From Corynebacterium glucuronolyticum (GTDB taxonomy: Bacteria; Actinomycetota; Actinomycetes; Mycobacteriales; Mycobacteriaceae), in NCBI GenBank assembly GCA_022772305.1, contig JALFAQ010000032.1, forward strand, positions 1 to 33,672: a stretch of DNA of 33,672 nt. The letters are read 5' to 3'. The notes under the pieces are model-generated. The model did not search any database. It was not told the DNA's origin and saw nothing but the letters and a program-made list of their open reading frames with translations. Positions within the stretch are counted from its first letter, which is position 1; the number at the start of each line of letters is the position of its first letter. A program made the translations under genes and the position numbers. This document shows positions 19,280-24,191 of the stretch, in pieces.

Positions 19280-20365
19280 CTAATCGGTGGCGGTGGGCTT
19301 GCCCGTCGTGGACTGCTGCTGGCTGGCACCCCTGCCCTCGTCATCCGGGGTATGGGAGGCGGGGTTCCAGTCGGGCGCGACCGCCCCCTGCGCCTCGTCG
19401 CGTTTTGTCTTAATGACGGATGCGATGGCAGTGACAGCCAGCACGCCGACGATGACGAACAGGGAGGTAATGTTACCGATCTCCGGCACGGGGATGCCTT
19501 CACCACCGTTTATGAATGGCAAGTTGTTCTCGTGCAGTGCATGGAGCACGAGCTTGACACCAATGAACGCCAGGATGGTAGCCAGACCGTAAGGTAGGTA
19601 GACCAACCGCTCCAACAGGCCGTCGAGAAGGAAGAACATCTGCCGCAATCCCATGAGAGCGAACGCGTTCGCGGTGAACACAATGTAGGGCTCCTGGGTG
19701 AGGCCGAAGATAGCCGGAATGGAGTCGAAGGCAAACATTAGGTCAATGAAGCCGATGGAGATGAGCGCCAGCATGAGGGGCGTCACCATCTTCTTGCCGT
19801 TTTCCACCGTGAACAGCTTGTCGCGGTCGAAGTGGGAGGAGACGGGGATGACCTTGCGAGCTGTCTTCACCACGAACATGTCATCAATGTCGGTGTCATC
19901 TTCACCTTTGACCTCGTCCACAACGAGCTTTATCGCCGTGTAGAGCAGGAAGGCACCGAAGATGTAGAAAACCCAGCTCCATGCGTTAATCGCCGCGGCG
20001 CCGAGGAGAATAAATACCAGGCGCATCGCCAGCGCCATCGCAATACCAATGAGCAGCACCTTTTGCTGGTACGCACGGGGGATCTTAAAGGAGCCAATGA
20101 TGAGGGCGAAGATGAAGAGGTTGTCGATAGAAAGCGACAGCTCGGTGATATAGCCGTTAAAGAACTCAAGCGCGTGTTCGTGCGTCCAGTTAAACCACAG
20201 GAAGATGGTGAACAAGCCGGCAAGGCTCATGTAGAACGCCATCCAGCCACCGGCTTCCTTCATCGTCGGCTCGTGTGGGCTCTTCACGTGGGAGTAGAAA
20301 TCGAACGCGATGAATCCCAACAGCACCACGATCGTGATAATCCACGTAACTAGGTTAACTTCCAT
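19280..20365 (-). CDS. TerC family membrane protein (Mn efflux/metallation type)
   Basis: A 361-aa polytopic membrane protein of the TerC/Alx family; members export Mn2+ or supply metal to secreted enzymes. About nine hydrophobic segments are visible. The family motifs with acidic residues inside membranes are present: ELSLSIDNLFIFALI (about residues 75-89) and IGFIDLMFAFDSIPAIFGLTQEPYIVFTANAFALMGLRQMFFLL (about 205-248). The C-terminal 45 residues are a hydrophilic tail. The function is strongly supported by a yybP-ykoY-type Mn2+ riboswitch in the 5' leader. No homologous symbol is certain, so none is given. Confidence 0.92.
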   Translation of the reverse strand: MEVNLVTWIITIVVLLGFIAFDFYSHVKSPHEPTMKEAGGWMAFYMSLAGLFTIFLWFNWTHEHALEFFNGYITELSLSIDNLFIFALIIGSFKIPRAYQQKVLLIGIAMALAMRLVFILLGAAAINAWSWVFYIFGAFLLYTAIKLVVDEVKGEDDTDIDDMFVVKTARKVIPVSSHFDRDKLFTVENGKKMVTPLMLALISIGFIDLMFAFDSIPAIFGLTQEPYIVFTANAFALMGLRQMFFLLDGLLERLVYLPYGLATILAFIGVKLVLHALHENNLPFINGGEGIPVPEIGNITSLFVIVGVLAVTAIASVIKTKRDEAQGAVAPDWNPASHTPDDEGRGASQQQSTTGKPTATD

Positions 20366-20376
20366 AATATTTTTTT

Positions 20377-20507
20377 AGACCTCCGGCTAATACATTCTTA
20401 AACCTTGAGGTCTTACCCACCACGTCCGTGGCCGACGTGCCCGGATGCGCCACTGGATTGTGGTACACCGTGATGACGTTCACGCCGTTGCGGGTTACTC
20501 CCCTCGT
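20377..20507 (-). ncRNA. yybP-ykoY-type Mn2+ riboswitch in the terC leader
   Basis: Read on the minus strand, the leader has GAGGGGAGTAACCC (20505-20492) and, about 75 nt on, GGGTAAGACCTC (20418-20407). These are the two conserved halves of the yybP-ykoY aptamer (GGGGAGUA loop 1 and the [CU]AAGACC loop 3 strand) closed by P1 GAGG/CCUC. Internal hairpins such as CACGTC/GACGTG and CCAC/GTGG fill the middle. The P1 3' strand AGACCTC (20413-20407) is also complementary to GAGGTCT (20383-20377), which contains the ribosome binding site. Aptamer formation would therefore free the Shine-Dalgarno sequence, giving a translational ON switch with Mn2+. The distance from GGAGG to ATG is 14 nt, a little long. 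Confidence 0.85.
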
Positions 20508-20580
20508 CACAACTGTTACGACTTTAGCCGAACTTCCCTTCGTGCGCTAACGCTCCCCACGACGCATGCAATGGAAAAGG

Positions 20581-20606
20581 AAAACCGGCCAGCAATGTGC
20601 TGACCG
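20581..20606 (-). terminator. Intrinsic terminator downstream of ftsK
   Basis: On the minus strand CGGTCAGCA (20606-20598) pairs with TGCTGGCCG (20594-20586), one G-T pair, 3-nt loop, followed by GTTTTCCTTTTCC. It lies about 47 nt after the ftsK stop and just upstream of the terC leader. Confidence 0.75.
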
Positions 20607-20619
20607 ATTCTAACTTTTC

Positions 20620-23856: not shown

Positions 23857-24191
23857 GTAAGTAACAATAACCCCTTTTGCCACATTTTCCACACAGGCAA
23901 CGCCGAGGGGCAACGATTCCCCTCACGCACACTCCCCTCCCCCAGCACTACCAACCGTGTGGCGTGAGAATACCCGGACCGTGTGCTGGCCCACAAATCC
24001 TGGACGGAAAGTACGTAACATTAGGTTTATTACGACACACACCGTCGCCAAGCTACAGGCATCTCGGAGTTGCGGGGAGCAGCAGCCCCAACGCGAAACC
24101 GCGTCAACGCTTGAGCGTTGACACGGTTTCCTACCTTGCGTTGATGCACCGAAGTCGACATAGGTTCCAGTAGAGCCGATGCCACGTGCTG
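23857..24191. other. Intergenic region upstream of ftsK
   Basis: About 335 bp between the TIGR03085-like gene and ftsK, both on the minus strand. It holds a long hairpin (24095-24130) and presumably the ftsK promoter. No gene is seen. Confidence 0.5.
24095..24130 (-). terminator. Long hairpin downstream of the TIGR03085-like gene
   Basis: GAAACCG (24095-24101) and GTCAACGC (24103-24110) pair with GCGTTGAC (24115-24122) and CGGTTTC (24124-24130), giving a 15-bp stem with one internal C-A mismatch and a TTGA loop. There is only a short T run, so this is a probable Rho-independent-like terminator about 60 nt after the stop. Confidence 0.55.

Follow-up and report, generated by a model that had tools for sequence, protein, structure and literature searches.

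The terC gene in a stretch of Corynebacterium glucuronolyticum DNA (the window, 33,672 nt) is preceded by a leader that the original prediction took for a yybP-ykoY-type Mn2+ riboswitch acting on translation. Does the leader belong to this family, and how would it control terC? We consider it highly probable that the terC leader (20506-20377, minus strand) belongs to the yybP-ykoY family of Mn2+ riboswitches and that one of its strands is exchanged between the closing helix P1 and an arm carrying the Shine-Dalgarno (SD) sequence, with Mn2+ predicted to free the ribosome binding site (RBS) and turn on TerC. The parts of the locus are as follows.

19280-20365, minus strand: terC, 361 amino acids, ATG at 20365; the product matches TerC (PF03741) with a Pfam score of 171.7 bits against a cut-off of 27.8
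23913-20653, minus strand: ftsK, the upstream neighbour of terC
20581-20611, minus strand: terminator-like hairpin between ftsK and terC, behind ftsK
20521-20526, minus strand: TAAAGT, probable -10 element of the terC promoter, starting 20 nt before the first position of covariance model R1 (described below)
20502-20505, minus strand: GAGG, 5' strand of P1, closing on CCTC at 20410-20407
20496-20501, minus strand: GGAGUA, 5' strand of L1, invariant in alignments A1 and A2 (described below)
20492-20495, minus strand: ACCC, 5' strand of P2, partner of GGGU at 20418-20415
20481-20487, minus strand: CGGCGUG, 5' strand of P3, partner of CACGUCG at 20439-20433
20468-20478, minus strand: CGUCAUCACGG, core of L3 and other half of the metal site; CGUCANCACGG in A1 and CGUCA..ACG in E. 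coli alx
20450-20463, minus strand: apical hairpin above L3, CCAC/GUGG, variable among relatives
20433-20439, minus strand: CACGUCG, 3' strand of P3, from the fold of the window with the canonical aptamer enforced
20420-20431, minus strand: P4 hairpin, CCAC/GUGG, covarying at five of its six pairs
20415-20418, minus strand: GGGU, 3' strand of P2, pairing with ACCC of the 5' strand
20407-20414, minus strand: switching strand, composed of AAGA (3' L1) and CCUC (3' P1), partner of either 20505-20502 or the SD arm
20377-20384, minus strand: GGAGGUCU, SD arm of the sequestering hairpin, containing the SD sequence GGAGG (20384-20380)

From ftsK towards terC the minus strand reads GAGGGGAGUAACCC ... 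CGGCGUGAACGUCAUCACGG ... GGGUAAGACCUC ... GGAGGUCU ... AUG. The spacing of 14 nt between SD and ATG is long, yet lies inside the range of the genus. A TANNNT motif starting 10-30 nt upstream of P1 was found in 120/120 genus leaders, compared to 30/480 control windows. Transcription of terC probably begins shortly before P1, at a promoter of its own.

In the yybP-ykoY family, the metal is held by L1 and L3, as seen in crystal structures. All strings named in the original prediction are present on the minus strand: GGGGAGTA at 20503-20496, GTAAGACC at 20416-20409, GAGG at 20505-20502 and CCTC at 20410-20407. The first two had been presented as the conserved halves of the aptamer. This description holds for GGGGAGTA, the L1 half. 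We rejected it for GTAAGACC, which is the 3' strand of L1 and P1 (E. coli alx and mntP have GAGACC there); it is CGUCAUCACGG in L3 that completes the metal site. In RNA letters, the halves originally named read GGGGAGUA and GUAAGACC; they form the 5' and 3' sides of L1 and P1. The window combines GGGGAGUA in L1 (20503-20496) with CGUCA in L3 (20478-20468). The A-U pair 20495-20415 in P2 is a double change relative to the C-G pair of most relatives. Two features count against the assignment: P1 has 4 bp where most relatives have 5, and P3 beside L3 is weak, with two G-C pairs and A.G mismatches.

To compare the leader with its relatives, we used an alignment (A1) of 40 out of 120 leaders, picked to be diverse from the 92 leaders no longer than 178 nt. 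Removal of L113 (misaligned) and L070 gave alignment A2, of which the 38 leaders were used. The covariance model R1 was built from 38 Corynebacterium terC leaders, including that of the window and excluding the E. coli leaders. R1 matched the window at 20406-20506 with 61.8 bits (E 9.6e-13), a score obtained by construction, the window's leader being a row of the model. Independent matches were obtained in E. coli, to the alx leader with 42.4 bits (E 2.8e-9) and to the mntP leader with 23.0 bits (E 1.4e-4), in both cases with the same order of strands. The idea of a class unrelated to yybP-ykoY was dropped at this point. Among the 11 loci in the phylum found by the Rfam model RF00080, R1 recognised five at E up to 0.01, including L140 (28.3 bits) and L149 (36.7 bits). 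A model built without them thereby recognises alx and mntP, which are known from experiment, as well as the RF00080-positive L140. A further R1 match at 24071-24103 of the window, with 14.0 bits (E 0.44), was put down to chance. The L3 motif CGUCANCACGG is invariant, but for N, across all 40 leaders in A1. The likeness between the window and alx extends to details, with GGGGAGUAAC and CGUCAU.ACG in both; L3 of alx reads CGUCAUUACG.

The helices are supported by covariation. Over the 38 aptamers, 95.2% of pair cells were standard and 14 of the 26 pairs changed on both sides; none of 500 shuffles reached any of the five measures used. By helix, covariation was observed at 8/11 pairs of P3 and 5/6 pairs of P4. 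P1 is near-constant in the genus, with a double change at 0/5 pairs, leaving support thin for this helix. When 60 family and class sequences were analyzed in an alignment fitted to R1, 20/26 pairs covaried, and the second pair of P1 was GC in 49 and AU in 11 sequences of this fitted alignment. This comparison recovers a layout in which P1 closes the structure and P3 bears L3; canonical P3 is absent from the ligand-free minimum-energy fold of the window alone, in which a local hairpin occupies the L3 region. With these results, the assignment of the leader to the yybP-ykoY family, as originally proposed, stands: P1-P4, L1 and L3 are conserved and covarying, and a model made from genus leaders recognises both E. 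coli genes.

Could the leader contain nothing but a hairpin that sequesters the SD, for example a thermometer, and no ligand-binding aptamer? The sequestering hairpin is indeed stable by itself, with a median of -16.9 kcal/mol over 120 leaders. We find this explanation scarcely credible, given that the whole upstream aptamer covaries and that R1 recognises the E. coli leaders. It is also conceivable that the leader has the yybP-ykoY fold but responds chiefly to something else, for instance pH, as reported for alx, or another divalent metal. The available sections of one study describe a response of the alx riboswitch to alkaline shock as well (PMC9603457), and the detailed likeness of the window to alx in GGGGAGUAAC and CGUCAU.ACG would fit such a sensor. 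Conservation of both L1 and L3, and the identity of the downstream genes as TerC, GDT1 and Na_Ca_ex transporters, argue for Mn2+ instead and make a different main signal very unlikely.

The original prediction had counted a sub-threshold score of RF00080 against itself, and the score is indeed sub-threshold. With Rfam 15, RF00080 gave no match at the terC leader of the window even at E up to 10, no match at the site in 16 genus loci scanned and no match in the whole genome at E up to 0.001. Its gathering score was reached in 0/121 genus genomes; weak matches (E up to 1) occurred in 18/121, by coordinates none of them at the terC leader. R1, run on six of these weak-match loci, produced a single match (L127, 14 bits, E 0.43). 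In E. coli, too, the leaders of mntP and alx (L291:667-771 and L292:1377-1499) scored below the gathering threshold of RF00080. Because it misses these known members, its failure at this site is uninformative, and we no longer treat its silence as evidence against membership. The structure line printed for RF00080 has no P1 pairing, and its consensus contains CGUCAACA in L3. On 14 further R1-positive loci, RF00080 found one (L205, 32.8 bits, below cut-off). On a class sample drawn as for R1, it matched 7/246 genomes at E up to 0.001, with none over the cut-off, and only L140 of the 11 RF00080-found loci in the phylum (L140-L150) exceeded its cut-off. With an older Rfam release, RF00080 was reported at C. 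glutamicum cg2157 (terC) with 49.13 bits (PMC3890552, available section), and a single call was reported for each of two genomes of C. pseudotuberculosis, with 40.90 and 49.16 bits, the genes being unnamed in the available parts of these reports (PMC3917459, PMC3890534). Thus, RF00080 of Rfam 15 is blind to most of the actinobacterial branch, and annotations resting on it would miss this branch.

How would such an aptamer control terC? The strand CCUC (20410-20407) has two possible partners: GAGG of P1 (20505-20502) or, as part of AGACCUC, the sequence GAGGUCU at 20383-20377. As originally stated, AGACCTC (20413-20407) is the exact complement of GAGGTCT (20383-20377), and the two pairings are mutually exclusive, both consuming CCTC. 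GAGGTCT shares bases with the SD sequence GGAGG (20384-20380). The alternative pairing buries the SD and excludes the closing helix of the aptamer. The best ligand-free folds of the window had energies of -50.1 kcal/mol with P1 and -56.5 kcal/mol with the sequestering hairpin. Enforcing the canonical aptamer left the gap unchanged (-47.4 kcal/mol with P1 versus -53.8 kcal/mol sequestered). The computed preference for the sequestered state in the absence of ligand is ~6.4 kcal/mol; the seven pairs of the SD arm then have predicted probabilities of 0.92-1.0, and the SD is paired except for its first G. The anatomy of the aptamer (P1, L1, P2, P3 with L3, and P4), its covariation among relatives, its homology to alx and mntP and the exclusive pairings are features established by sequence and computation.

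In 120/120 genus leaders, the 3' strand of P1 folded onto the SD arm, compared to 78/2400 shuffled arms. This control flatters the result, since a GGAGG-like motif had served to delimit the arms. In a fairer control, the SD and the P1 strand were kept; the next four bases were all paired in 110/120 leaders, compared to 1.8% of 12000 shuffled loops. In the window, two of these next four bases are paired without a bulge, and the stem is extended on the other side instead (AGA/UCU).

These pairings suggest the following sequence of events. In the ligand-free state, CCUC of the P1 3' strand would be held by the SD arm, with the RBS of terC buried. Mn2+ would dock L1 against L3 and in this way stabilise P1. 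The stabilised P1 would then strip CCUC off the SD arm, allowing ribosomes to load and TerC to be made. By its family, TerC is likely a Mn2+ exporter.

The same Mn2+ riboswitch might instead regulate transcription, either with the SD hairpin acting as a terminator or through Rho in the untranslated leader, ribosome access being secondary. A run of at least four T within 9 nt after the SD hairpin was found in 31/120 genus leaders (for example L003, L025, L042 and L047), and L025 scores as terminator-like; an SD hairpin with such a run could double as an intrinsic terminator. There is also precedent in the accessible text of two papers, which place E. coli mntP under control of Rho plus riboswitch (PMC11647493) and describe a transcriptional Mn riboswitch in which a terminator and the P1.1 switch helix compete with each other (PMC11087558). 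In contrast, the hairpin of the window is followed by TCTAAAAAAATA and not by a T-run, and its terC leader contains no terminator-like site, as the original prediction had also noted. Moreover, the SD lies inside the hairpin in 120/120 genus leaders, whether or not a T-run follows. We therefore regard regulation by transcription as unlikely. Note that an A-rich tract takes the place of the T-run in the window and in genome G097.

The element is widespread in the genus. A TerC match was present in 120/121 genus genomes, and GGGGAGYA in 120/121 genus terC leaders (120 genomes, one of which contributed two copies). The sole terC leader in the genus without the element is L120, which belongs to the second TerC paralogue of G058. 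R1 matched 117/121 genus genomes; of the four that it missed, the motif is nevertheless present in G013, G056 and G077. In G078 (77% complete), the terC match behind leader L121 (R1 75.4 bits) is in five pieces, as would be seen with a disrupted gene or a low-quality assembly. R1 reached 150/201 genomes of the family at E up to 0.01 and 152/246 genomes of the class at E up to 0.001 (63/104 genera), the genes being read for the 20 best loci of the class matches. Two class genomes, G720 and G755, have five R1 matches each. In 79/79 loci searched by tblastn, a TerC, GDT1 or Na_Ca_ex protein adjoined the R1 match; these represent 75 distinct places (four were refetched), include 8 Corynebacterium terC loci and were analyzed with Pfam in 4 cases. 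The element of the window likewise lies in the 5' leader of a gene of cation-export type, terC (PF03741).

Outside the genus we analyzed 100 further matches, 85 of type A and 15 of type B, split by the GGGGAGTAG string; 40 of these matches were short (L231-L270; 36 of type A), with the gene identity of these loci unread. At least four of the five bases of the P1 3' strand could pair downstream in 73/85 type A leaders and in 10/15 of type B, which fits the SD-arm scheme more poorly. The core of the P1 3' strand is changed in 9/85 type A leaders. In these, the P1 5' strand is changed in 9/9 and an exact downstream complement is present in 8/9. Of these eight, two also hold GAGG-bearing leaders, and by genus they amount to about three lineages. 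Counter-cases outside the genus are L199, L203 and L215, in which the P1 5' strand is GAAGG while the P1 3' strand and the SD are unchanged. Among the 76 unchanged type A leaders, four (L185, L186, L190 and L235) have no GAGG within 60 nt. Together with the one strand common to P1 and the SD hairpin in 120/120 genus leaders, the joint strand changes in 9/85 leaders bear out the translational platform that had been proposed.

Two side observations concern other genes. In G090 and G117, a second copy of the element (L216 and L217), of GGGGAGUAGC type, precedes a gene for an Na_Ca_ex exchanger. In the GDT1 leaders L183, L189, L192, L201 and L209, the P1 3' strand CCUUCGGCC can, by eye, pair with GGCCGGAGGAAGG. 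The GGAGG of GGCCGGAGGAAGG could pair with a later CCUCC that masks the SD close to the start, and may thereby form a relay.

A broader proposal is plausible, although somewhat more apt to fail than to hold. Actinobacteria may possess a large and mostly unlisted branch of Mn2+ riboswitches in which the P1 5' strand copies the SD; the three-way match would be kept by joint changes across genera, and the Corynebacterium hairpin would drift between a terminator combined with an SD lock and, in the lineage of the window, a pure SD lock. Published work already covers the family, its translational role in E. coli and a prediction at Corynebacterium terC. What is new is that R1 matches 152/246 class genomes, compared to 0/246 over the cut-off with RF00080 in a sample drawn the same way; a study of the alternative pairing or the spread of the actinobacterial branch was not found in the open-licence literature searched, which was covered in part. 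The prediction places a likely Mn2+ exporter of Corynebacterium and, judged by homology, of many further actinobacteria under direct RNA control, and the exact strands for mutation are now named.

How does the element compare with known systems? It shares with yybP-ykoY (RF00080, 'Manganese') the GGGGAGUA motif in L1, CGUCA in L3, the P1-P4 layout and the position before a TerC gene. It differs in its L3 (CGUCAUCACGG), in the 3' strand of L1 (AAGACC versus GAGACC) and in its P1, which has just 4 bp. E. coli alx and mntP, both annotated as Mn2+ exporter genes, are matched by R1 with the same strand order, whereas the sequence outside L1 and L3 is different; this comparison covers the aptamers and not the expression platforms. 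The accessible part of one report places mntP under a translational Mn riboswitch (PMC11647493).

The original prediction had presented a translational Mn switch in an actinobacterium as a contrast to designs elsewhere. It is not the first: at C. glutamicum terC (cg2157), a yybP-ykoY element had already been predicted by Rfam, the authors' fold showed the RBS (partly) sequestered, and the 5'-UTR had been mapped by RNA-seq to 2,043,151-2,042,955 (PMC3890552, available section). That section consists of a table entry and a fold, and does not contain an alternative pairing, a comparison or a Mn2+ test. The closest mechanistic likeness is to the transcriptional yybP-ykoY riboswitches with P1.1, in which, according to the available sections of PMC11087558, an overlapping downstream hairpin likewise competes for the P1 strand. 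There the hairpin is a terminator, whereas the hairpin of the window carries no T-run and buries the SD.
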